Shown: positions 224 to 14,207, counted from the first letter of the stretch. The stretch: DNA of 64,000 nucleotides from Hymenobacter cheonanensis (GCF_030581075.1 NZ_JAUQSW010000007.1:1-64000), one strand, 5' to 3'. Numbers and translations are program-made. Notes: generated by a model from the sequence alone, not told the origin.

Positions 224-274
224 TGAGGTGGTCTAGGGAGGCCGGACAGAAGCAGGATGTATATTTCTTCTGTC

Positions 275-595
275 ATGGCAACCAAAACCAGCGGGGTGTC
301 GCCCGACAAACGGCGCAAGTACGACGAGGCGTTTAAGGCCGAGGCCCTGCGCCTGGCCAGTGAAAGCTGCAGCACCCAGGCTGCGGCCCGGCAGTTGGGC
401 ATCAGCCCCAAGCTGCGCTACCGCTGGCAGCAGGCGCAGCTCGTGGCCGAAGGGGGCAGTGAGCAGGTGGCCCGCGACCCGGAGGCCCGGGCCCTGCGCG
501 CCCGCCTCAAGCGGGCGGGGCAGGAGCTTGACATTTTAAAAAAAGCCTTGGTCAGCAAATGCTGTAGCCGCATTATCGGCCAGCCGACCCGGTGA
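275..595 (+). CDS. IS3-family transposase OrfA (helix-turn-helix subunit)
   Basis: This 106-residue protein has the transposase_8 (IS3 OrfA) pattern: RRKYDEAFKAEALRLASE, then the helix-turn-helix around TQAAARQLGIS, and a C-terminal leucine-rich stretch ending ELDILKKALVSK. OrfA binds the element ends. The ATG at 275 gives the usual MATK-type beginning; an upstream in-frame ATG at 257 overlaps the inverted-repeat region. A run of seven A followed by G at 538-545, just before the end, looks like the site where IS3 elements shift -1 to make the OrfAB fusion. The partner orfB is broken, so this gene is probably a relic. Confidence 0.8.
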   Translation: MATKTSGVSPDKRRKYDEAFKAEALRLASESCSTQAAARQLGISPKLRYRWQQAQLVAEGGSEQVARDPEARALRARLKRAGQELDILKKALVSKCCSRIIGQPTR

Positions 596-969
596 GCACC
601 TGCCAGCACATCGCCCAGCGCCAGGCTCACGTGCCGGTGCGCCAGGTGCGGCGCGTGGCCGGGCCGGCCTAGCCAGGCGCGGTGCGCGAAGCGTTTGCGT
701 ACCACAGCCAGCATTATGGCCCGCGCTGGCTGCGGTGCAGCCGGCGGGGCAACTGCTATGACAACGCGCACGCCGAATCGTTTGGGAGCCGCTTCAAAGC
801 CGAATTACTCGACGGCGGCAGCTTCGCCGGCCTGCCCGAAGCCACGCTCGAAAGCAGCCACCCCATCGCCTGCTACAACGCCGAGCGGCGGCATTCGGCG
901 CTCGGCTACCGTGCCCCAAACCAATTCGAAACACACCTGCAAACAACGTCCCAACTCTGTCCGGCTTAG
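595..969 (+). pseudogene. IS3-family transposase OrfB, internally deleted
   Basis: The frame reads STCQHIAQRQAHVPVRQV, typical of an OrfB N-terminus, then meets a TAG stop at 670-672. It resumes as VREAFAYHSQHYGPRWLR and jumps straight to SRRGNCYDNAHAESF, the C-terminal part of the rve integrase core. It ends with the conserved NAERRHSALGYRAPNQFE segment. Roughly 150 residues between these two parts, with catalytic acids, are missing. This is a deletion derivative, not a functional transposase. Confidence 0.8.
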
Positions 970-2696: not shown

Positions 2697-4022
2697 CTAG
2701 GCAGCGAATGGCAAGTGCGTTTGGGCATAGTGCCAGATGGCAGGGATGTCTACCTTACGCAAAGCCCAGAGGCTCCATACTACCACCATCGACCCAACGC
2801 CGATAAACATCCAGCGGGTGGGCAGGCGGCCGGCCAGCCGGGCGGCCAGCGGCGCGGCCGTAACGCCGCCGACAATGAGACCCAGCACAATTTGCCAGTT
2901 AGAAAAGCCCATCAGGGAAAAGAAGGTGAGCGCACTGGCAAACGTCACAAAAAACTCCACCAGGCTTACGGTGCCGATAACGTAGTTGGGCGTGCGGCCA
3001 TTGGCGATAAGGGTGCTCGTAACCAGCGGGCCCCAGCCGCCGCCGCCGAATGAGTCCAGAAACCCGCCCGCACCAGCCAGCCAGCCGGCATTCTTCACCT
3101 TGCGGCGCTTTTGGGCTTGCTTGCGCACGGCTTTGCTGATGATGCGCAGCCCTAGCAGGAGCAGGTAGACCGCTAGAACCGGCTTAATAATGCTGGCGTA
3201 CTGCTCGCCGAAATGCGTGAGCAGCAGGGCGCCGCTCACGGAGCCCAGGATGCCGGGCACCAGCAACACCTTGAACAAGCGCTTGTTAACGTTGCCGAAG
3301 CGGTAGTGGTTGTAGCCGGAAGCGCCGCTGGCAAACATCTCGGCCGTATGAATACTGGCGCTCACCGAAGCCGGACTTAGCCCCAGCGACATCAGGCTGA
3401 TGGCCGACACTACGCCGTAGCCCATGCCCAACATGCCATCGATGAGCTGGGCCACGAAGCCCACGCCGACGAACGTGTAGAAAGTGCCTGAGTTACTGAC
3501 TACATACCATGCCTGCTGCCAGGTGAAGTAATACGATAAGATATTGACTATCAAGAATAAGGCAAATACCCCTAGCGTGCCGGTGGCCACCCGGCGCCAG
3601 TAGTCAACAGCCGTTGCCTCATCGGCGGGGCCTAGCGCGGCCACGGCGTGGAGGCGGCGGGCCGAGGAGGCGGCCCGCACGCGGCCGTGCAGGTCGGCAT
3701 CGTCGGTGGCAACGAGCACCAGGTCGTGCCCGGTCAAATCGTCGGGCTCGAACGGGCGCGCCCGCAATAGCACCTGGCCATGCTGAGCGGCCAAGGCCTG
3801 CAAGGCCGGTAAAAAATGAGGTGCTACTACCGTAACCGCCGCCTGAGGGTGCTTGTGGAGCACGGCGGTGAGCTGCGCCAGGGCCTCGGCGCCACCACCC
3901 ACCAGCAGCAGCCGGCGCTGCTCCAGGTCCAGGAAAACGGGTAGCCCCGGGCCGGCTAGCAGCCCGGGGCGGCCGTCATCCGTTACCGCGGCGGGAGCGG
4001 CCGGGAGAAGGTCAGTAGCCAT
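2697..4022 (-). CDS. fusion: siroheme-synthase Rossmann domain + TauE/SafE sulfite exporter
   Basis: This 441-residue protein joins two functions. Residues about 25-145 form a precorrin-2 dehydrogenase-like NAD-binding fold (FLDLEQRRLLLVGGGAEAL with the GGG turn, later LVLVATDDADLHGRV). Precorrin-2 dehydrogenase makes sirohydrochlorin on the way to siroheme, the cofactor of the neighbouring sulfite reductase. Residues about 150-441 are a membrane domain of roughly eight helices of the TSUP/TauE family, with GMGYGVVSAISLMSLGLSP and FLDSFGGGGWGPLVTSTL. These proteins move sulfite, sulfonates or sulfate. The dehydrogenase part lacks the dimerisation region of full CysG/Met8p and there is no SAM methyltransferase domain, so another enzyme must methylate uroporphyrinogen III. 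It is the last gene of the sulfur cluster, 20 bases after cysI. The frame is continuous, so the fusion looks real. Confidence 0.85.
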   Translation of the reverse strand: MATDLLPAAPAAVTDDGRPGLLAGPGLPVFLDLEQRRLLLVGGGAEALAQLTAVLHKHPQAAVTVVAPHFLPALQALAAQHGQVLLRARPFEPDDLTGHDLVLVATDDADLHGRVRAASSARRLHAVAALGPADEATAVDYWRRVATGTLGVFALFLIVNILSYYFTWQQAWYVVSNSGTFYTFVGVGFVAQLIDGMLGMGYGVVSAISLMSLGLSPASVSASIHTAEMFASGASGYNHYRFGNVNKRLFKVLLVPGILGSVSGALLLTHFGEQYASIIKPVLAVYLLLLGLRIISKAVRKQAQKRRKVKNAGWLAGAGGFLDSFGGGGWGPLVTSTLIANGRTPNYVIGTVSLVEFFVTFASALTFFSLMGFSNWQIVLGLIVGGVTAAPLAARLAGRLPTRWMFIGVGSMVVVWSLWALRKVDIPAIWHYAQTHLPFAA

Positions 4023-4042: not shown

Positions 4043-5755
4043 TTAGTTGTGAAAATCCAGCCCGCGCACCGTGGCTTTTACGATGCCGGTGCGCACTACA
4101 AAGTCGCCGAAGCCTTCGCCAGGCTGGCGGTCGGTGGCGTAGGCGGCCAGCAGCGGGGAAAGCTCGCGCAGGATGCCGTCCTCGTCGAGCATTTCGCGGT
4201 AGAGCTTGTTGAGGCGCTCGCCGGCGTGGTCGGCACCGAGGTAGAGGTTGTAGCGGCCGAGGGCCTTACCCACCAGGCCAATTTCGCCGAGGTAGGGGCG
4301 GGCGCAGCCGTTGGGGCAGCCGGTCATCCGAATGAGGATGCCGGTTTCGGCCAGGCCGTGGGCGCGGATGACGGCGTCGAGCTTGTCGAGCAGGTGCGGC
4401 AGGTAGCGTTCGGCCTCAGCGAAGGCTTGCGAGCAGGTGTTGAGAGCCACGCAGGCCAGCGCGCCGCGCCGTAGGGCAGTAAGCTGGTCGGCCTTGGGGG
4501 CGGCACCGGCTTCGTCTAAGATGGCCTGGACGCGGGCCACGTGCTGGGGCTCAATATTGGCCAGAATGAGGTTCTGGTTGCCCGTAAGGCGAAACTCGCC
4601 GGTGTGGAAACCGCTGATTTCGCGTAGGGCCGACTTAAGGCGGTAGCCGGGGCGGTCGAGCACGCGGCCACCTTCCACAAACAGTACGAGCTGCGCGAGG
4701 CCGCCAGGACTTTCGGTCCAGCCGAAGGCATCGCTGGAGCTATGGAACTGGTAGGGGCGGCTAGGGGCTAGTGGATAGCCCAGGCGCTGGTGCAGCTCGG
4801 CCACGAAGGCGGGCAGGCCCACGCGGTCGATGGTGTACTTGAGGCGCGAGAGCTTGCGGTTTTCGCGGTTGCCCCAGTCGCGCTGGATGGTTACGATTTT
4901 CTCGCACACGTCGATAACCTTATCAGCGGGCACGAAGCCGATGAGGTCGGCTAGCCGGGGGTAGGTTTCGTTCATGCCAAACGTCATGCCCAGGCCGCCG
5001 CCTACGGCTACGTTGAAGCCGAGCAACTGGCCATTTTCCTCGATGGCGATGAGGCCGATGTCGTTGGAGAAAATGTCAGAGTCGTTGTAGGGCGGCAGAG
5101 CCAGCGCGATTTTGAACTTGCGCGGCAGATAGGTGTGGCCGTAAATGGGCTCGTCGTCCACGGCCTCGGTGGTTTCTACCAAGTTGCCGTCGAGCCAGAT
5201 TTCGCGGTAGGCGGTGGTGCGCGGCGTAAGGTGGGCGCTGATTTCTTGGGCAATGCGCACGACCTCGCCGTGCACGGCCGATTCGTGCGGGTTGGTGTTG
5301 CACATCACGTTGCGGTTCACGTCGCCGCAGCCCGCGATGCTGTCCATCTGCACCTCGTTGAAGCCCTGGATGGCGGCCGGCAGGTTACGCTTGAGTACGC
5401 CGTGGAGCTGGAAGGTCTGGCGTGTGGTGAGCTTGAGGGTGCCGTTGCCGTAGGCGTCGGCTAGGGCATCCATGCGCTGCCACTGCGGGGCCGAGGCCAC
5501 GCCGCCGGGCACACGCACCCGAATCATGAACGAGAACAGCGGCTCCAGCTTCTGGCGCTTGCGCTCGCTTTCGAGGTCGCGGTCGGTTTGCTGGTACGAG
5601 CCGTGAAATTTGATGAGGTGCGTGTCGTCGGGGTTAAGGGCGCCGGTGAGGCGGTTGGCCAGGCTCTCGACGAGCGTGCCGCGCAGGTAGCGGCTGGCAA
5701 TTTTGACGTGCTCAACTTCGGAGAGCTTGGGCGCGGTGGCTAGGGTATCGGACAT
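4043..5755 (-). CDS. cysI: sulfite reductase (NADPH) hemoprotein, beta subunit
   Basis: This protein of 570 residues, the same length as E. coli CysI, reduces sulfite to sulfide with six electrons supplied by CysJ. It carries siroheme and a [4Fe-4S] cluster. The four cluster cysteines are visible as C-x5-C in ACVALNTCSQAFAEAERYLP and C-x3-C in TGCPNGCARP. The duplicated ferredoxin/nitrite-sulfite reductase half-domains are present (LTTRQTFQLHGVLKRNL and FRLTGNQNLILANI). GCGDVNRNVMCN is the conserved siroheme-region loop. It is cytoplasmic and lies between a TonB receptor and the siroheme/TauE fusion. Short inverted A/T-rich repeats separate it from the receptor gene. Confidence 0.96.
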   Translation of the reverse strand: MSDTLATAPKLSEVEHVKIASRYLRGTLVESLANRLTGALNPDDTHLIKFHGSYQQTDRDLESERKRQKLEPLFSFMIRVRVPGGVASAPQWQRMDALADAYGNGTLKLTTRQTFQLHGVLKRNLPAAIQGFNEVQMDSIAGCGDVNRNVMCNTNPHESAVHGEVVRIAQEISAHLTPRTTAYREIWLDGNLVETTEAVDDEPIYGHTYLPRKFKIALALPPYNDSDIFSNDIGLIAIEENGQLLGFNVAVGGGLGMTFGMNETYPRLADLIGFVPADKVIDVCEKIVTIQRDWGNRENRKLSRLKYTIDRVGLPAFVAELHQRLGYPLAPSRPYQFHSSSDAFGWTESPGGLAQLVLFVEGGRVLDRPGYRLKSALREISGFHTGEFRLTGNQNLILANIEPQHVARVQAILDEAGAAPKADQLTALRRGALACVALNTCSQAFAEAERYLPHLLDKLDAVIRAHGLAETGILIRMTGCPNGCARPYLGEIGLVGKALGRYNLYLGADHAGERLNKLYREMLDEDGILRELSPLLAAYATDRQPGEGFGDFVVRTGIVKATVRGLDFHN

Positions 5756-5856: not shown

Positions 5857-8754
5857 CTAGTGCAGCACCGTGGCGTCGAAGGTGACGCTCGCATAATACA
5901 GCGCCCCAATGGTGGGGCCGGCGGCGTACTGGAAATAGCGGCGGTTGAATAAGTCGGTGCCGCCGAGCTTGATGGTCGATTTGAGGGTGGGCACGCGCAG
6001 GTTTATCTGGGCGTCGATGGTCTGGTAGGCCGGCACCTGGCCGTTGGCCAGGGGGCTTTCCCAGTAAAAGGAATCCTGCCAGCGCCAGTTCACATTAAAG
6101 CCGAAGTTGCGGACAATCTCGCGGTTGCCGAACGAGAGGTTGGTGGCCCACTTGGGGGTATTAAAACCAGTGACGAAGACATCGGTTTGGCTGTTGGCCG
6201 AGAGGGCGTTGAAGTTGACGTTGCCGGCCAGGGTGAATTTCTGGTAGAAATTGTAAGTCAGGCCCAGCGTGGAGCCGTAGCTGTGGTAGTCCTGGCGCGA
6301 GTTGGTGTACACGCGGTATCGGTCCTGGCGGGCGTCGCGGTTAACACGCAGGGCGGCGAGGGCGGCGGCATCGGTGCCCACGGCTACCTGGTTGCCGTTG
6401 GCGTCCTTGGGCACGCTCACCTCTACCTGGCCCAGGAAGCCGGAGTACACGTTGTAGTACGCGTCGGCGTCGATGGCTAGCTTATTGTTGAGCAGTACGC
6501 TGCGGTAGCCGACCTCGAAGGCGTTGATTTGCTCGGGCTGCTCGGTGGGCAGGTTGGCTACTTGCAGCAGGGCGCGGTTTTGGGGCAGCACGGCGGCCTG
6601 GGCGGCGGTGCTGCCGCTGTTGGCGGCCACGTAGGCGTTCACGGCCGCGTTGAACTGGTCGATGCTGGTGCGGGTGTACGAATTTTGCAGGTAGTTCAGG
6701 CCCTCGTTGACCCTGGCCAGGCCGCCCACGCGGCGCACGTTGCCGTTGTTGACGAACGACAGGGCCTCAAACAGCGAGGGAAAGCGCCAGCCATTCTGGT
6801 ACGAGGCGCGGAAATTGTGCTTCTCCGCTAGGGTGTACACGGCTGCCAGGCGCGGGTTGACCTTGGCCGTAAACTCGGGGTTGTAATCGACACGCAAGGA
6901 GGCGGTTAGCTTGAGCTTGTCGGCTAGAAAGAGCTTGGTAGCCTGGCCGAAGGCGCCGAACTTCTTGTAGTACACGTAGTCGCCGCCGGGCTGGCTGCGC
7001 TCGGCCAGCGGCCGGCTGAAATCCACGAAGTTGTTGCCGTCGGGGATAATCTGGTACACGCGGGCATCGGCCCCTAGCAGCAAATCCACGAACTTGACAC
7101 GCTGGCCCAGATTCCAGAGGCCTTCGGTGTGGTAGGTGCGGCTGTGCTGGGTGAGGGCCGCACCGCCGGGGATGGGCGCGCCCGGCACGTTCACGCCACT
7201 GTCCCAGTTGTTGATGCTGGTAATCTGGTTTTTAAGGTCAGTGAAGGCCTGGGTGCCGGGCTCGGCGCGGCCAGCGTCGGCGGCCTGGCGGGCGGCGGCC
7301 ATGGCCTGGGGCAGGGCGGCGCCGGCGGCTAGCTGGTTTTGCAGCGCCGTTTTGAACTTGGCGCCCCACACGGCGTTCGAGCCGTTTTGCAGGTCGAGGT
7401 TGAGGGCTAGCGGATTGAGGTTGTACGAGTTGCCGGTGTTCTCGATGAGCGTGTAGGCGCGCACCACGAAGTCGCTGCCCTTCAGCTCCAGCTTGTGGTT
7501 TTGCACCGTCACGCCGTTGAGCTGAATCTTGTTGCCGCGCTGAAACACGCCGTCCATCAGCCCGAAGCGGTAGCCGTAGCTTAGCTCCAGCTTATCGGTG
7601 AGCTTGTAGTGCAGGCTGGCGTCGGCCTTGATGTTGCGCACGATGGGATTCACGAGGTCCTTCTCGTAGTAGCCGGTGCGCGTTACGGTGAAGGCCTGGT
7701 TTTTACCCTGGTAAGGAATCGTGACGGTGAGCGACGAGTTAGTGTCGTCGCCGTAGCGGTTCCAGAGGTCGGCGGCCGGGTTGTAGGCGCCCGACAGCTC
7801 CGGAAAGCCGGGGTTGGAGGTCGCAAGGCCCTGCGGGTTCTGGTCGGTTTGGGTATTCGAGAGCCAGTCGGTGCCGCGCAGGTAATCGAGGTTCACCTTA
7901 TAGGCCCAGCGCTCGCCCAGGGCCTGCGCCCAGCGCACCGACGTTTCGGTGAGGGCGCTCGGGTGGCGGTCGATGCCATCGACGTGGTTCACGCCCAGCT
8001 TTTGGTACACGCTCAGGCCCTGGTAGGTGTAGGGGCTCTTGGTGGTGAGGTTGGCCATGCCGTTGATGGCGTTCATGCCGTAGAGGGCCGAGGCCGCGCC
8101 GGGCGTGATTTCGACACTGGCAATGTCGAGTTCCGTGGGGCCGATGGCGTTGCCGAGCGGCACGCCCAGGGTGGCGGCCTGCATATCCACGCCATCCACG
8201 AGCTGCATGAAACGGAAGTTGTTGGGGATGTTGAAACCCCTGGTATTCGGCACTTTAAAGGTGAGGCTGCTGGTGAGCATCTGCACGCCCTTCACGTTTT
8301 CGAGGGCGTCGTAGAAGCTAGGGGCCGGTGTTTCCTTGATGGCCCGGATGTCGAGCTTTTCAATGGCAACCGGCGACTTGAGCCGGCTTTCCTCCACGCG
8401 CGAGGCCGACACGACCACCTCACTGGTCAGAATTTCCTTGGGCTCCAGCACGATGTCGAGCGGCTGGTTGGCGCTGTTGATGGGCAGCACCACCGGCTCG
8501 TGCCCCAAGGCATTGAACACGAGCACGAACGGATATTTCAGGCGTGCCTTGAGGGCGAACTTACCGTCGCCATCGGTTTGGGTGCCCGTGCTGGTACCCT
8601 GGACGCTTACGCTCACGCCCGGTAGGGCTAGTCGGCTGCCCTGCTCGTGCACGGTGCCGCTCACGGCCAGCAGCTCGGTTTGGGCAAAGGCCGCGCTGAG
8701 GCTAGCCAGTAAGAGAATCAGGAAAAGGATGATGGAAGGGTAGTAAGCTTTCAT
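5857..8754 (-). CDS. TonB-dependent outer-membrane receptor in the sulfur locus
   Basis: This 965-residue protein starts with a signal peptide (MKAYYPSIILFLILLLASLS, cleavage near AFAQ). Residues about 30-105 form a carboxypeptidase-D-like regulatory domain (VSGTVHEQGSRLALPGVSVS). The plug domain follows at about 110-235 (EVVVSASRVEESRLKSPVAI, PNTRGFNIPNNFRF) and then a long beta-barrel to the C-terminus. Such proteins import scarce ligands across the outer membrane using TonB energy. Its place between cysJ and cysI suggests a sulfur-containing substrate, but the sequence does not tell which. The gene start is overlapped by a small cysteine-rich frame (8702-8869), which probably controls its translation or transcription. 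Confidence 0.9.
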   Translation of the reverse strand: MKAYYPSIILFLILLLASLSAAFAQTELLAVSGTVHEQGSRLALPGVSVSVQGTSTGTQTDGDGKFALKARLKYPFVLVFNALGHEPVVLPINSANQPLDIVLEPKEILTSEVVVSASRVEESRLKSPVAIEKLDIRAIKETPAPSFYDALENVKGVQMLTSSLTFKVPNTRGFNIPNNFRFMQLVDGVDMQAATLGVPLGNAIGPTELDIASVEITPGAASALYGMNAINGMANLTTKSPYTYQGLSVYQKLGVNHVDGIDRHPSALTETSVRWAQALGERWAYKVNLDYLRGTDWLSNTQTDQNPQGLATSNPGFPELSGAYNPAADLWNRYGDDTNSSLTVTIPYQGKNQAFTVTRTGYYEKDLVNPIVRNIKADASLHYKLTDKLELSYGYRFGLMDGVFQRGNKIQLNGVTVQNHKLELKGSDFVVRAYTLIENTGNSYNLNPLALNLDLQNGSNAVWGAKFKTALQNQLAAGAALPQAMAAARQAADAGRAEPGTQAFTDLKNQITSINNWDSGVNVPGAPIPGGAALTQHSRTYHTEGLWNLGQRVKFVDLLLGADARVYQIIPDGNNFVDFSRPLAERSQPGGDYVYYKKFGAFGQATKLFLADKLKLTASLRVDYNPEFTAKVNPRLAAVYTLAEKHNFRASYQNGWRFPSLFEALSFVNNGNVRRVGGLARVNEGLNYLQNSYTRTSIDQFNAAVNAYVAANSGSTAAQAAVLPQNRALLQVANLPTEQPEQINAFEVGYRSVLLNNKLAIDADAYYNVYSGFLGQVEVSVPKDANGNQVAVGTDAAALAALRVNRDARQDRYRVYTNSRQDYHSYGSTLGLTYNFYQKFTLAGNVNFNALSANSQTDVFVTGFNTPKWATNLSFGNREIVRNFGFNVNWRWQDSFYWESPLANGQVPAYQTIDAQINLRVPTLKSTIKLGGTDLFNRRYFQYAAGPTIGALYYASVTFDATVLH

Positions 8755-8869
8755 CGAAAAGCGGAGTTGAAGTCAAGAAAATGCCGGCCGGAGCGGGCGA
8801 AAACTGGCGGGAAAGCGGGCGCATACAGCAGCCGGCCAGGCGACAACAACAGGTAGGCATAGTCATCAT
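8702..8869 (-). CDS. poly-cysteine small ORF overlapping the TonB receptor start (candidate cysteine attenuator)
   Basis: The 55-codon frame begins ATG ATG ACT ATG at 8869 and encodes MMTMPTCCCRLAGCCMR near its start: five cysteines within nine residues, in TGT and TGC codons. It continues through the ATG of the TonB receptor (8754) in another frame and stops at 8702-8704, so the two frames overlap by 53 bases. A CCTTTG box at 8879-8884 on the minus strand ends about nine bases before the ATG, so the mRNA could be leaderless. Cysteine-rich short frames upstream of sulfur-assimilation genes are known in mycobacteria to sense cysteine by ribosome stalling; a similar role here is inference. Confidence 0.6.
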   Translation of the reverse strand: MMTMPTCCCRLAGCCMRPLSRQFSPAPAGIFLTSTPLFDESLLPFHHPFPDSLTG

Positions 8870-8878
8870 GGTGAAAGT

Positions 8879-8886
8879 CAAAGGGT
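8879..8886 (-). promoter_or_regulatory. possible -7 box for the small ORF/TonB transcript
   Basis: On the minus strand the bases read ACCCTTTG, one mismatch from the Bacteroidetes -7 consensus TAnnTTTG. It is placed so that transcription would start near the ATG at 8869. A convincing -33 TTTG is not seen. Confidence 0.35.
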
Positions 8887-8919
8887 TTTGAGTAGAGTAT
8901 TTGTCGTGCTGGCGGGGTG

Positions 8920-8960
8920 CCTCACCCCCCAGCCCCCTCTCCTTGGGGAGAGGGGGAGCC
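8920..8960. repeat. REP-like GC-rich palindromic repeat, single copy
   Basis: CCTCACCCCCCAGCCCCCTC, then an eight-base stem CTCTCC/GGAGAG, ends GGGGGAGCC. The same unit occurs as inverted pairs at 14380-14500 and 32884-33007. The bases after it (TAGCGATT) resemble the TGACGATT tail found next to the other copies. It lies just after the cysJ stop codon. Confidence 0.8.
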
Positions 8961-8967
8961 TAGCGAT

Positions 8968-10794
8968 TTAGTACACGTCTTCGAGGTAGCGGCGCTGCTT
9001 GCGTAGGTTTTTGACGTAAGCCGTGGCGTCTTCGGGTGAGAGGCCGGCTTCTTTCTGCACTACTTGGGCTAGCGCAGTTTGCACGGCGTGGCCGAGGCGG
9101 TTTTTATCGCCGCACACGTAGAAGTGCGCGCCGTTTTCGAGCCAGCCGAACACGTCGCGGCTGTTTTCGAGCAGGCGGTCCTGCACGTAGACTTTCTCCG
9201 CCTGGTCGCGCGAGAAGGCCACGTCGAGCCTGGCCAGGCCGCCGCGCTTGAGGTGCTGCTGCCACTCGGCCTGGTAGAGGAAGTCGGTGGTAAAGTGCGG
9301 GTTGCCGAAAAGCAGCCAGTTGCGGCCGCTAGCCCCCAGCTCCACGCGCTCTTCCACGAAGGCCCGGAACGGCGCGATGCCTGTGCCGGCGCCCACCATA
9401 ATGATATCGGTGCCAGCCTCCTTGGGCAGCTTGAAGTACTCGTTGTGCTCCACAAACACGCGCACCTCGTCGCCCACCGCCACGCGGTCGGCGAGCAGCG
9501 ACGAGCACACGCCCTGCTTCTGGCGGCCGTGGGCCTCGTAGCGCACGGCGCCCACCGTGAGGTGCACCTCATCGGGGTGGGCCAGCAGGCTGCTGGCGAT
9601 GGAGTAGGCGCGGGTGGGCAGCGGGCGCAGGGTATCGGCCAGGGCCTGGGGCGTGAGCTGGTCGGTGGGGAAGTCGAGCAGCAAATCAGCCACGTCACGG
9701 CCGTAGAGGTAGGGCTGGAGGCGACTTGTATCGGCCAGCAGGCCGTGCAGCTCGGCGTGGGGGGCTAGCGCGGCGTAGCGCTCCAGCACGTCGCGGGTGA
9801 GCACCGTTAGCTCGCGGCGGCTGGCCAGGGCAGCGGCCAGCGACAGGTTTTCGGCCCCAAGCAGCACCGGGGCCGAGTCGGAGAGGCGCGCGGCACGTAG
9901 CACTTCCTCCACCAGCGGGCTGTGGTTGAGTGGCCGCACGGCCAGCGCATCGCCGGGGGCGTAGGTCAGCCCCGAGCCGGCCAGGTCAAGCTCAATGTGG
10001 TGCGTTTCCTTGTCCGAGCCCCGGCCATTGAGCTGAATGGTTTCGAGTACCTTGGCCGGCCAGGGGTTTTCGGCCGAAAATTGCGCAGTAGGCTGCGGCT
10101 CAGCTACTACGGCGGCCGTGCTGCCAGCCGTAGCGGCTAGGGCCGGCGTTGCGGCCGGCGCCTGGCCGGCCGTTAGTTTGTCCAGCGTGGCGGCTATCCA
10201 GTGCACGGCGGCCGGCTTGTAAGCCACGTCGGCATCGATGCGGTCGAGCAGGCGGGTGGCCCCTAGCGCGGCCAGCCGCTCGTCGAAGTCTTTGCCCGTC
10301 TGGCAGAAATGGATGTAGCTCGTATCGCCCAGCGCCAGCACGGCGTATTTCAGCTTGGGCAGCTTGGGCGCACGCGGGCCGCCGATAAACTGGTGCAGCT
10401 CCTCGGCCGAAACGGGCGGCTCGCCCTCGCCGTGGGTGCTCACGATAATGAGCAGGTTTTGCTCCTGCGCCAGCTGGCGGCCGGGGTAGTCGTTCATGTC
10501 GCGCACCTCGGGCTTGAGGCCGCGGGCAGTGGCGGCTTCGGCCGCCTGCTCAGCTATTTTCTTGCCGTTGCCGGTGTGCGAACCGTAGAGGATAGTCAGC
10601 TTCCCGGCTGGGGTGGCTGGTGCGCTGGCCTCGGCAGCTACAGCGGGGCTAGCCACTGCGCCCGCCGCCCCGCTCGTGGCCTGGCCGTAGAAATAGCCGC
10701 TCAGCCACACCAGCTGCTGCGGCGTGAGGCTAGCCGTAAGCTGCTGAAGGGTAGCCTCATCGAGGCTGGGCGGAAGAATAGGAAGCGTAGGCAT
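8968..10794 (-). CDS. cysJ: sulfite reductase (NADPH) flavoprotein, alpha subunit
   Basis: This 608-residue protein passes electrons from NADPH through FAD and FMN to CysI. The flavodoxin domain lies at about 65-205 (TILYGSHTGNGKKIAEQAAE, STHGEGEPPVSAEELHQF). The FAD-binding part includes RAYSIASS and GVCSSLLADRV, and the NADPH-binding part includes MVGAGTGIAPFRAFVEERV and YVCGDKNRLGHAV. It ends with the family's KNLRKQRRYLEDVY. The first 60 residues are a variable linker-like region with an alanine-rich stretch. It is downstream of cysN by 33 bases in the same direction. Confidence 0.95.
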   Translation of the reverse strand: MPTLPILPPSLDEATLQQLTASLTPQQLVWLSGYFYGQATSGAAGAVASPAVAAEASAPATPAGKLTILYGSHTGNGKKIAEQAAEAATARGLKPEVRDMNDYPGRQLAQEQNLLIIVSTHGEGEPPVSAEELHQFIGGPRAPKLPKLKYAVLALGDTSYIHFCQTGKDFDERLAALGATRLLDRIDADVAYKPAAVHWIAATLDKLTAGQAPAATPALAATAGSTAAVVAEPQPTAQFSAENPWPAKVLETIQLNGRGSDKETHHIELDLAGSGLTYAPGDALAVRPLNHSPLVEEVLRAARLSDSAPVLLGAENLSLAAALASRRELTVLTRDVLERYAALAPHAELHGLLADTSRLQPYLYGRDVADLLLDFPTDQLTPQALADTLRPLPTRAYSIASSLLAHPDEVHLTVGAVRYEAHGRQKQGVCSSLLADRVAVGDEVRVFVEHNEYFKLPKEAGTDIIMVGAGTGIAPFRAFVEERVELGASGRNWLLFGNPHFTTDFLYQAEWQQHLKRGGLARLDVAFSRDQAEKVYVQDRLLENSRDVFGWLENGAHFYVCGDKNRLGHAVQTALAQVVQKEAGLSPEDATAYVKNLRKQRRYLEDVY

Positions 10795-10827: not shown

Positions 10828-12123
10828 TTAAATGGAAAACGTGGCTTCCACCGGCACTTCCTGGGTGAAGTACTCGGGGTCGGTGGTGGTGATGAGGCCG
10901 GCGGCCAGGGTGGCGCCGGTTTGGTCATCGACCAGGATGAAAGCGCCGGTGTCGCGGTTGTGGCGGTACTCGTCGGCCACCAGCGGCAGGGCAGTTTTGA
11001 GGCGCACCCGCACGATGTCGTTGAGTTTGGCCTCGTCGGTGCCCACGCTCTCGAAAGTTTCGATGTTGGTTTTCTGGAGGATGGTCGTCACAGCGGCCTT
11101 CACCACGGCCGAGTGGTGCTGCACCAGCAGCTTGCGGCCGGCACGCAGGGGCCGCTCGTCCATCCAGCACAGGGTCGCTTCAAACTCGCGCGCCACGGCC
11201 GGGTGGGCATTGAAGGGCACAATGGTATCGCCCCGGCTGATGTCGATGTCATCGCGCAGCCGCAGGATGACGCCCTGCGGCGCCGTTGCCGAGGCCACCT
11301 CCCGCTGGTTTATCTCAATGGCTTCGAGTACCGTTTCGAGGCCCGAGGGCCAGATGCGTACCTTGTCGCCGGCGTGGTAGGTGCCGCTCTGGATGCGGCC
11401 GGCGTAGCCCCGGTAGTCGGGCAGCTCCTCGGTCTGGGGCCGAATGACATATTGCACCTGAAAGCGCGGCTCGTTAGGATTGGCATCGGCGGCCACGGGC
11501 ACGCTTTCCAGGTGTTCGAGCAGGCTAGGGCCGTGGTACCACGGAATGTGCTTCGAGCGGCGCACGATGTTGTCGCCATGCAGCGCGCTCAGCGGAATGG
11601 CCACCACGCTAGCCAGCTTCAGCTGCTCGGCAATGTCCTGGTAGTCAGCCACAATTTTATTAAAAATGACTTCGTCGTAGCCTACTAAGTCCAGCTTGTT
11701 CACGGCCAGCACAAAGTGCCGGATGCCCAGCAGCGAGGCTAGCAGCGTGTGGCGGCGCGTCTGCTCAATCACGCCCTGGCGGGCATCAACCAGCACAATA
11801 GCCAGGTCGGCGTTGCTGGCGCCGGTCACCATGTTGCGGGTGTACTGCACGTGGCCCGGCGCGTCGGTGATGATGAACTTGCGGCGCGGCGTGGTGAAGT
11901 ACTTGTGCGCCACGTCGATGGTAATACCTTGCTCGCGCTCGGCCTTGAGGCCGTCGGTCAGTAAAGCCAGGTCTACCGTGTCACCGTTGGTGGCGGTGCG
12001 CTTCTTTTCGAGCGTTGCCAGCACGTCGAGCGAAACGGAGTCGCTGTCATAAAGCAGGCGGCCGATGAGCGTGCTCTTGCCGTCGTCGACGCTGCCGCAG
12101 GTAATAAAGCGTAGGATATCCAT
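10828..12123 (-). CDS. cysN: sulfate adenylyltransferase subunit 1 (GTPase)
   Basis: This 431-residue GTPase drives APS formation by CysD. It has the G1 P-loop GSVDDGKSTLIGRLL, the G3 motif DAPGHVQYTRNMVTGAS and the G4 motif NKLDLVGY, followed by EF-Tu-like beta-barrel domains. There is no APS-kinase (CysC) extension, which would add about 170 residues. That agrees with the FeS-type APS reductase at the head of the cluster, which uses APS directly. It lies 24 bases after cysD. Confidence 0.95.
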   Translation of the reverse strand: MDILRFITCGSVDDGKSTLIGRLLYDSDSVSLDVLATLEKKRTATNGDTVDLALLTDGLKAEREQGITIDVAHKYFTTPRRKFIITDAPGHVQYTRNMVTGASNADLAIVLVDARQGVIEQTRRHTLLASLLGIRHFVLAVNKLDLVGYDEVIFNKIVADYQDIAEQLKLASVVAIPLSALHGDNIVRRSKHIPWYHGPSLLEHLESVPVAADANPNEPRFQVQYVIRPQTEELPDYRGYAGRIQSGTYHAGDKVRIWPSGLETVLEAIEINQREVASATAPQGVILRLRDDIDISRGDTIVPFNAHPAVAREFEATLCWMDERPLRAGRKLLVQHHSAVVKAAVTTILQKTNIETFESVGTDEAKLNDIVRVRLKTALPLVADEYRHNRDTGAFILVDDQTGATLAAGLITTTDPEYFTQEVPVEATFSI

Positions 12124-12147: not shown

Positions 12148-13044
12148 CTAAAAGTACCCGTTGCGTTTGCGGTCCTCCATGCCGGTTTCGGAGAGGTTGT
12201 CGTCAAGGCGCGTGGCGCCGCGCTCGCTCACCTTGGCCAGCAACAGGTCCTGGATAATGTCATCAATCGAGGCGGCGTCGCTCTCCACGGCGGCGGTGCA
12301 GGTCGAGTCGCCCACGGTGCGGAAGCGCACGCGGCGGTTCACTATCTCGTCGGTTTCGTCGAGGTTGAGATGCTCGCTCAGGCCTAGCAGCTGGCCGCTG
12401 GGCAGCACCACGCACTGGCGCTCATGCGAGAAATAGATTTCGGGCAGCTCGATTTTTTCGCGTTGGATGTAATTCCACACGTCCAGCTCGGTCCAGTTGG
12501 AGATGGGGAACACGCGTACGTTTTCGCCCTTCTGAATGCGGCCGTTGTAGATGTTCCACAGTTCGGGGCGCTGGCGCTTGGGGTCCCACTGGCCAAAGTC
12601 GTCACGCACCGAAAAAATGCGCTCCTTGGCGCGGGCCTTCTCCTCGTCGCGCCGCGCCCCACCAATGCAGGCATCAAACTCAAACTCCTCAATAACATCG
12701 AGCAGCGTGTAGGTTTGCAAGGGGTTGCGGCTAGGGTACTTGCCGCCCGGCTCGCGCAGGCCGCGCTCTCGAATGGTATCCTCCACCTTGCGCACAATCA
12801 ATTTTTCGCCCAGGGAAGCGGCCAGCTTATCGCGGTAATCGATTATTTCCTGGAAGTTGTGGCCCGTGTCGATGTGCACGAGCGGGAAGGGAAACTTGCC
12901 CGGCCGAAACGCCTTTTCGGCCAGCCGCGTGAGGGCAATCGAGTCTTTGCCACCCGAGAATAACAGCGCGGGCCGCTCAAACTGGCCGGCTACTTCGCGC
13001 AGAATGTGAATAGCTTCGGCTTCTAGTCTATCTAAGTAATCCAT
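12148..13044 (-). CDS. cysD: sulfate adenylyltransferase subunit 2
   Basis: This 298-residue enzyme adenylates sulfate with ATP to form APS. The PP-loop motif is in ALLFSGGKDSIALTRLAEKA. VHIDTGHNFQEIIDYRD, IGGARRDEEKARAKERIFS and the C-terminal RKRNGYF are all characteristic of CysD. I chose the ATG at 13044 (MDYLDRLEAEAIHILREVAG), which gives the normal family start. The frame stays open upstream to 13317 only as a shadow of cysH. It lies between cysH and cysN, with 38 bases to the cysH stop. Confidence 0.95.
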   Translation of the reverse strand: MDYLDRLEAEAIHILREVAGQFERPALLFSGGKDSIALTRLAEKAFRPGKFPFPLVHIDTGHNFQEIIDYRDKLAASLGEKLIVRKVEDTIRERGLREPGGKYPSRNPLQTYTLLDVIEEFEFDACIGGARRDEEKARAKERIFSVRDDFGQWDPKRQRPELWNIYNGRIQKGENVRVFPISNWTELDVWNYIQREKIELPEIYFSHERQCVVLPSGQLLGLSEHLNLDETDEIVNRRVRFRTVGDSTCTAAVESDAASIDDIIQDLLLAKVSERGATRLDDNLSETGMEDRKRNGYF

Positions 13045-13082
13045 TGGGTAGTAATAAATTGGTGTTTGGTAAGAAGTAAGAG

Positions 13083-13838
13083 CTAGCTGGGTAGTTTTTC
13101 CACTACCGGGTCGAGGCCTTGGTGGGCGGTGGTGTGGAGGCCACACTCCTTGGCGTCGGTATTTTCCCACCACCAGCGGCCGGCGCGGAAGTCCTCGCCA
13201 GGCTGAATGGCCCGCGTGCACGGCGCGCAGCCAATGCTCACGAAACCTTGCTGGTGCAGCGGATTCACGGGCACGCCGTGCTGCTGGGTGAAGGCCACGG
13301 TGTCGGCCCAGGTCCATTCAAAAAGCGGGTGCACCTTGATGAGCTGATGGCCAGCGTCCCACTCCACCGCGTGCATGTGCTGGCGGTTGGCCGACTGCTC
13401 GGCCCGGATGCCGGTGAGCCAAATCTGGGTGCCGGCCAGCGCCCTGGCCAGGGGCTCCACCTTGCGAATGTGGCAGCACTCCTTGCGGTTTTCGATGCTC
13501 TCGTAGAAGCTGTTAGGGCCTTTTTGAGTCACCAAAGCTTCGACGCTGGCGGCTAGGGGCGCGAAGGCTTCGATGGGCTGGCCGTAGCGGAGCAGCGTCT
13601 TATTCCAGGTCGAGTAGGTTTCCTGAAAATTGCGACCTGTGTCGAGCGTGAACACCCGCACGGGCAGCTCATTGGCAAAAATGAGGTGGCTCAGCGCCTG
13701 GTCCTCCATGCCAAATGACGTCGAAAACGACACGCGGCCCGGAAAGCGCTCTGCAATGGCCCGAATAATCTCCAGCGCGGAAAGCCCGGCCAGTTGCTGG
13801 CGCAGGTCAATGACCTGAGCCTCAAGTATACTATCCAT
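13083..13838 (-). CDS. cysH: adenylylsulfate (APS) reductase, assimilatory, [4Fe-4S] type
   Basis: This 251-residue protein reduces activated sulfate to sulfite with electrons from thioredoxin. PP-loop region: SFSTSFGMEDQALSHLIF. The two cysteine pairs typical of APS-using enzymes are present as KECCHIRKVEP and GCAPCTRAI, and the catalytic C-terminal ECGLH is intact. PAPS-using enzymes such as E. coli CysH lack the two pairs, so APS is the likely substrate. The ATG at 13838 gives MDSILEAQVIDLRQQLAG; an upstream in-frame ATG at 13892 adds an unconserved tail. It is the first gene of the operon and is preceded by about 390 bases of leader with a SAM-I riboswitch. Confidence 0.93.
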   Translation of the reverse strand: MDSILEAQVIDLRQQLAGLSALEIIRAIAERFPGRVSFSTSFGMEDQALSHLIFANELPVRVFTLDTGRNFQETYSTWNKTLLRYGQPIEAFAPLAASVEALVTQKGPNSFYESIENRKECCHIRKVEPLARALAGTQIWLTGIRAEQSANRQHMHAVEWDAGHQLIKVHPLFEWTWADTVAFTQQHGVPVNPLHQQGFVSIGCAPCTRAIQPGEDFRAGRWWWENTDAKECGLHTTAHQGLDPVVEKLPS

Positions 13839-13979
13839 GATGAAAGGGGGTTCTGCGCAGCTCAAAAGCCGCTGAGAAAAAGGTGCCGACACGCGGGGGC
13901 GCTCCCGCTAGGCCCATAAAGACCCAGGGAGCAGCAAGAACCCGAACGGAGTGGTAGCCGGCTGGCCAGAAAGGCGTTG

Positions 13980-14048
13980 CTAAACGCTAACAGCTCCGCA
14001 TAGCTCCCGTGCGCATTCGGCAGGGGCAGCACATACAACAACACCCAT
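13980..14048 (-). CDS. possible cysteine-containing leader peptide before cysH
   Basis: A 22-codon frame in the leader, between the riboswitch and cysH, contains CAAPAECARELC: three cysteines out of 22 residues. No ribosome-binding site is visible, which is normal for this phylum. It may be chance, and is listed because the leader already carries sulfur-responsive control and a denser cysteine frame lies further down the locus. Confidence 0.25.
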   Translation of the reverse strand: MGVVVCAAPAECARELCGAVSV

Positions 14049-14111
14049 GCTGTAGGGCAGCAAGCGAGGTGGTCGTAAAGCGGAGGTTACTAGAGCAGCA
14101 CACGGCAACTT

Positions 14112-14207
14112 GTTTTTATATGGTCAGGACTTGGCACCGTTCCAGCGAATAGCTAGGGGTTGCCGGCGTTTCGTCGAGCCTGTCTCTCCACGCCTCTGTA
14201 TAAAAAC
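14112..14207 (-). ncRNA. SAM-I (S-box) riboswitch
   Basis: Read on the minus strand, the segment contains the S-box core: AGAGGCGTGGAGAGACAGGC, then CGACGAAACGCCGGCAACC, and the 3' part GGTGCCAAGTCCTGAC. A perfect nine-base P1 stem closes it (14199-14207 with 14112-14120). SAM-I aptamers bind S-adenosylmethionine and usually shut off methionine or sulfur genes when SAM is plentiful. It lies 30 bases after the -7 box and about 270 bases before cysH. I could not identify a clear terminator; a weak GC stem at 13893-13908 followed by five T at 13877-13881 is the best candidate. Confidence 0.92.

Follow-up and report, generated by a model that had tools for sequence, protein, structure and literature searches.

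In mycobacteria, leaderless short ORFs with poly-cysteine tracts have been studied experimentally (Canestrari et al. 2020, PMID 32181921, taken here from the descriptions in PMC9031893 and PMC13236596), and in those descriptions the speed of elongation reports cysteine and translation is attenuated. Candidate Cys leader peptides were predicted in Actinobacteria in 2005, with Cys-codon runs near the stop, positions upstream of cys operons and no obvious terminators (PMC1262725). In the Rhodobacterales, the predicted motif uORFC-8-2, upstream of cysS, has a leader ORF with two tandem Cys codons, for which ribosome-mediated attenuation was proposed (PMC8632094). A Cys-containing upstream ORF also controls a TonB transporter gene, bfrG, in Bordetella, where the ORF, CruR, responds to copper (PMC9426467). 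The sulfate-assimilation operon of Hymenobacter cheonanensis contains two short upstream ORFs that resemble the mycobacterial ones, as these are described, in their consecutive Cys codons and their position before sulfur genes, and they are best read as two attenuators within a single operon, both responding to cysteine through the ribosome. No report of a Bacteroidota, TonB-receptor or SAM-riboswitch-tandem version was found in the open-access literature searched, a collection outside which most subscription journals lie.

The window (the whole stretch analysed, 64,000 nt, NZ_JAUQSW010000007.1:1-64000) carries the operon on its minus strand, beginning with a SAM-I riboswitch and continuing with cysH, cysD-like, cysN-like and cysJ genes, the internal poly-Cys ORF, the gene for a TonB receptor, cysI and a siroheme/TauE fusion:

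13083..13838, minus strand: cysH-like PAPS reductase; ATG 13838 was chosen, GTG 13892 being given in the ORF list
12148..13317, minus strand: cysD-like ORF of the PAPS_reduct family; listed start probably too long
10828..12123, minus strand: cysN-like EF-Tu-family GTPase (sulfate adenylyltransferase large subunit), the name inferred from Pfam and context
8968..10794, minus strand: cysJ, upstream of the internal leader
8702..8869, minus strand: internal poly-Cys upstream ORF (putative leader peptide), beginning MMTMPTCCCRLAGCC / MMTMPTCCCRLAGCCMRP, with a 53-nt overlap onto the receptor start
5857..8754, minus strand: TonB-dependent outer-membrane receptor with a CarboxypepD_reg-like N-terminal domain, ATG 8754; presumed target of the internal leader
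4043..5755, minus strand: cysI (sulfite reductase hemoprotein), following the receptor gene
2697..4022, minus strand: siroheme-synthase-like NAD-binding domain fused to TauE/SafE

The closest homologues of the receptor are from Hymenobacter (94-96% identical). A transposase-like ORF pair lies at the left edge of the window (257-969, plus strand), and a plasmid search gave no match.

The preliminary description drew attention to five cysteines in nine residues (CCCRLAGCC) right after the start of the internal ORF and to its 53-nt overlap with the receptor ATG, and both are present in the sequence, on the minus strand. The ORF sits 98 nt downstream of cysJ, and its first Cys run is followed by a TGC-TGT pair at 8830-8825 (minus strand). 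Its exact start is uncertain, since the ATGs at 8866 and 8860 are both invariant in six aligned sequences of the window's clade. As a general trait the overlap does not hold: the ORF runs some 50 nt into the receptor gene before stopping in 12 of 75 non-redundant leaders, a feature largely confined to the window's sub-clade, while in most leaders it ends 20-160 nt before the receptor, and in most relatives 40-150 nt before it. The nearly leaderless mRNA that had been proposed to arise from a CCTTTG box finds no support either, because the ORF is operon-internal and the box shows no conservation. As a promoter the box (8884-8879) was rejected; it is without the TA of the Bacteroidota TAnnTTTG element, and the nearest relatives do not share it. 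At the internal leader neither a sigma-70-like site nor a conserved promoter was found, and an NCBIfam search with the ORF returned no family match. Between cysJ and the ORF there is an inverted-repeat element, ggctccccctctccccaaggagagggggct (window 8959-8918, minus strand), and similar sequences occupy the equivalent spot in some relatives (L014, L029, L033) and are absent in others.

Upstream regions were compared for 80 receptor homologues, together with 44 further leaders of the same family, a few of which repeat the same genomes. In this alignment, which the preliminary description had proposed as a check, the Cys codons are kept while the rest drifts, and the lack of conservation that it named as a refutation is thus not seen. 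An upstream ORF with CC is present in 54 of the 80 leaders and one with CCC in 32, against 0.17 per 80 for CCC in shuffled sequences, and other homopolymers are far rarer (Leu 5, Pro 4); most of the 44 further leaders have a poly-Cys ORF as well. Across about 490 genes (624 kb) of the same genome there are three CCC upstream ORFs, one of them the internal ORF itself (8869-8702), and among neighbouring non-receptor genes there is one in 318. Given these rates, the comparisons place the internal Cys-run ORF far beyond chance expectation. It is short and has no known family annotation, as might be said of a chance ORF without function, but such an origin is scarcely credible beside the shuffled and background counts and the occurrence of a second poly-Cys ORF in the same operon (41 of 41 leaders, see below).

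The peptides are otherwise unrelated while the Cys run is constant, as can be seen in MRLLPRRCCCSR, MRVLIKRCCCC, MKTTIISNRIVLPATVASCCC, MKPDVLKANQRRKRMCGLARRHCCCCR, MKTIVLNTRPIYPSASTRLPSCCCCCA and MNTNFTKFYFLYSSIFCCC (each followed by a stop), and in 56 of the 75 leaders the run ends 0-3 codons ahead of the stop. Poly-Cys ORFs also occur in other Bacteroidota families (MYYLLTSSSVQMCKMQCLTACCCC, then stop), including another family of the class (MYFLATSSVLYIHRMQGHTACCCC, then stop), and one other family has TAnnTTTG some 20 nt ahead of the ORF. Counting against the attenuator reading, roughly a third of the 80 homologues are without a poly-Cys ORF, and in several of these species the spacer between cysJ and the receptor is short. 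The leader is lost in L031, L035, L048 and L050, where the receptor follows closely behind the upstream gene, and a receptor paralogue on contig 18 (G000:C18:352646-355186, L142; 46% identical) is without one. A genome-wide search with the pattern TGYTGYTGY was set aside, being swamped by CTG-rich coding sequence.

Codon choice within the runs is strongly skewed. The Hymenobacter Cys runs contain 125 UGU and 14 UGC codons, against 20 UGU and 448 UGC in long ORFs of the same loci (odds ratio 200). Rare codons at the putative sensing positions fit an attenuator, and the UGU preference could partly serve an RNA helix. Were only a structured RNA at work, with the GUUGUUGU segment reading as Cys by accident and the ORF untranslated, one could point to the Cys segment forming the arm of a helix and to the head ORF, which gave no sign of protein-level constraint in an analysis of synonymous changes. 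Against this, the remaining structure and sequence drift freely while in-frame Cys codons persist behind a start codon, the pairing arm varies by clade while the Cys run is constant, the repeat favours the Cys frame over Val or Leu (CCC 32, LLL 5 and VVV 1 of 80), and in the receptor ORF the synonymous share is highest in the Cys frame (0.47 against 0.34 and 0.23); we regard such an explanation as very unlikely.

The rare UGU codons, which point to decoding, also bear on a nascent-peptide or metal sensor, in which a Cys-rich peptide would bind a metal or thiol reagent and arrest or release the ribosome. In having a Cys-rich ORF immediately before a TonB receptor the operon recalls CruR (PMC9426467), but CruR is a longer DUF2946 protein with CXXC and RAPP motifs that senses copper and acts through Rho-dependent termination, whereas the Hymenobacter ORF, when examined for DUF2946, CXXC and RAPP, gave no NCBIfam match, with no RAPP in the listed peptides. 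The peptide is unconserved outside its cysteines, the neighbouring genes are those of sulfate assimilation and not of metal handling, and a Cys run mostly 0-3 codons from the stop would still be inside the exit tunnel. A sensor of this kind seems most improbable here.

The attenuator reading draws further on the relation between the internal ORF and the receptor start, which involves three elements:

8843..8851, minus strand: Cys-codon run TGT TGT TGT, 5' arm of the predicted sequestering helix
8783..8837, minus strand: GC-rich inner hairpin (GGCCGGC ... CGGCCGGC), then ATTTTCTT; stacked inside the sequestering helix
8766..8774, minus strand: GACTTCAAC, situated 12 nt ahead of the receptor ATG; complement of the Cys codons (GUUG..GUC)

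For the 75 leaders of the non-redundant set, complementarity between the ORF segment and the receptor's translation start (-45 to +6) was compared with dinucleotide shuffles of the latter. It exceeds that of the shuffles (mean z -1.69, p 2e-15), the computed cost of opening the start exceeds that of shuffled leaders by 2.5 kcal/mol (p 2e-9), and a modelled ribosome footprint on the Cys codons gives a relief 1.6 kcal/mol above shuffles (p 4e-8), all p values that overstate independence since the sequences are related. An equal-length segment upstream of the ORF gave z +0.05 in the same comparison. In the window, start-opening comes to 10.1 for the free leader and 6.2 with a stalled ribosome (shuffled, 6.6 ± 1.1), and the Cys codons (UGUUGUUGUC) are predicted to pair with GACUUCAAC, 12 nt before the receptor ATG. 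Both sides of the pairing are near-invariant in the window's clade while the middle varies, and GACT.CAA is invariant in the six of its sequences that were aligned. The arm differs among clades and the Cys run does not. A compensatory change is seen in one Hymenobacter clade, from ACTTGC/GCAAGT to GATTGC/GCAATC (permutation P 0.0004), and a change from GATGTT/AACATC to GATGTC/GACATC in the Rufibacter group is, alone, not significant (P 0.11).

We consider it likely that the internal ORF encodes a leader peptide belonging to an attenuator that responds to cysteine through the ribosome. This attenuator would sequester the translation start of the TonB receptor, probably also controlling cysI behind it, and would act mainly on translation of the receptor. 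An attenuator linked to the receptor had been proposed in the preliminary description, and this part gains from the conserved Cys codons and the start pairing, while leaderlessness and a general overlap drop out. From these patterns we infer translation of the leader, stalling, cysteine as the signal and the following direction of control. With cysteine plentiful, ribosomes would move on through the rare UGU codons, after which the leader RNA would refold; the Cys-codon segment would then pair with the sequence just ahead of the receptor ATG and mask the translation start. With Cys-tRNA short, a ribosome would stall on the Cys codons, block the helix and allow the receptor to be translated. 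In the window's sub-clade, where the leader ORF crosses the receptor start, initiation may also be blocked by ribosomes that have not stalled. A weak point of the model is seen in Rufibacter-like leaders, in which 50-60 nt separate the Cys run from a pairing arm located upstream of it; one stalled ribosome would not open the helix there (delta near 0), so that a queue of ribosomes would be needed.

The same stalling could instead act on transcription, with the stalled ribosome covering the 5' arm of a terminator and, in cysteine excess, a hairpin and U-run stopping transcription before the receptor (and cysH). This is the mechanism proposed for the Rhodobacterales cysS leaders (PMC8632094), and the GC hairpin of the window's internal leader is indeed followed by ATTTTCTT; terminator-like hairpins also precede cysH in 21 of 41 head leaders, where 9.9 are expected. 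In the receptor leaders, however, a terminator-like site is found in just 8 of 75 against 3.9 expected, a terminator scan of 8400-9400 found none, and the conserved signal is the pairing with the translation start. In the scan of receptor leaders, 5 of 20 matches took the Cys codons themselves as the T-tract. For the receptor leader an intrinsic terminator is not favoured as the principal mechanism, given the small enrichment, and termination as the general explanation appears unlikely, with sequestration of the receptor start remaining the preferred reading of the internal leader.

The second poly-Cys ORF, at the head of the operon, was overlooked in the preliminary description and is more regular than the internal one:

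14113..14206, minus strand: SAM-I riboswitch aptamer (RF00162), 71.8 bits against a gathering threshold of 44.4
13987..14103, minus strand: head poly-Cys upstream ORF with GTG start, VCCSSNLRFTTTSLAALQHGCCCMCCPCRMRTGAMRSC followed by a stop, between the SAM riboswitch and cysH
13877..13905, minus strand: hairpin with T-run resembling a terminator, ahead of cysH and similarly placed in most close relatives; tentative expression platform

Exact TGTTGTTGT occurs at 28 sites in the 5.36-Mb genome, two of which are in leaders of this operon (the internal ORF and 14043-14035). The sites retrieved are nearly all within long open frames, and one that lies outside such frames has no clear start and no sulfur gene behind it. 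A Cys-rich ORF is present in 41 of 41 cysH leaders of the family (40 relatives and the window), with CCC or longer in 38, compared with 2.7 after shuffling, and the GTG of Hymenobacter head ORFs mostly comes right after the aptamer. The SAM riboswitch was matched in 19 of 20 relatives tested, and one genome without it keeps MVYSSHIERMRFCCCSSCCCCC (then stop). Outside the family, poly-Cys ORFs were found in 3 of 20 cysH leaders, one of these with a SAM riboswitch.

The head leader, just 3' of the riboswitch, would put the whole operon under cysteine control. No pairing of this leader with the cysH start was found, its total folding energy is ordinary (z -0.78), and its local terminator probability, computed under various ribosome positions, is low and uninformative. 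The excess of terminator-like hairpins before cysH is modest, and in the window's clade they occupy a similar position; since pairing with the cysH start is absent and the hairpins are enriched, transcription termination is the leading guess for the switch in this leader. The 3' strand of the aptamer's extended P1 helix (TATAAAAACAA, 14120-14110) ends a few nt short of the head GTG and thereby makes up the 5' portion of the region from which the head ORF starts, so that SAM could in principle gate its translation. This allows a doubtful but conceivable arrangement with two inputs, in which SAM binding could block translation of the head Cys sensor and the operon would open only with SAM and Cys-tRNA both low, while the receptor would carry a second cysteine lock of its own that travels with it.

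Set beside the known systems, the Hymenobacter leaders would share with the mycobacterial system, as described, the use of elongation over Cys codons as the sensor, and pairing of the ORF with a downstream start that a stalled ribosome would relieve is found by computation in the receptor leaders and not in the head leader. They differ from the mycobacterial accounts in not being leaderless (the internal ORF is inside an operon and the head ORF behind a riboswitch), in belonging to another phylum, in having one copy inside the operon ahead of a TonB receptor and another that follows a SAM riboswitch, and in that some overlap the target start. As the features of those accounts were found apart from leaderlessness, and the cysteine response is a prediction, the leaders may be said to work like the mycobacterial kind without being proven members of it. 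For the Actinobacteria candidates no start-sequestering helix was reported, and phylum and gene order differ (PMC1262725), while uORFC-8-2 has an intrinsic terminator within the motif, predominantly UGC codons and cysteinyl-tRNA synthetase as its target (PMC8632094). The SAM-I riboswitch at the operon head is the first of two sensors, with the poly-Cys ORF directly after it, stacking a SAM riboswitch and a putative cysteine leader in one transcript. If the attenuator reading is true, ribosome-mediated cysteine sensing would operate in a phylum far from mycobacteria and control an outer-membrane receptor, and many unannotated short ORFs in Bacteroidota leaders might likewise be sensors.

Where the receptor is found outside the cys operon (Rufibacter and other genera), the leader has remained with it, and there the two adjoin genes for DUF2490, TauE or luciferase-like monooxygenase proteins. 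That the leader is kept beyond the cys operon suggests that the receptor may import a sulfur source needed under cysteine shortage; the leader would in that case be a clue to the substrate, and its travelling with the receptor makes it usable for finding more members of the receptor family. A DUF2490 protein, a possible uptake partner, is often found behind the receptor (L052:6087-6863, L027:5907-6677), and a luciferase-like monooxygenase by the receptor in a Cytophagales MAG (L064:6221-7384) hints at sulfonate use. Where the receptor is transcribed as a separate unit, the poly-Cys ORF is immediately preceded by a palindrome, TTTGTCTAC-n-TATAGAC, frequently together with a TAnnTTTG promoter element; the palindrome is probably a repressor operator, and is found at L066:2809-2827, L148:516-534, L061, L064, L069, L076 and other loci.
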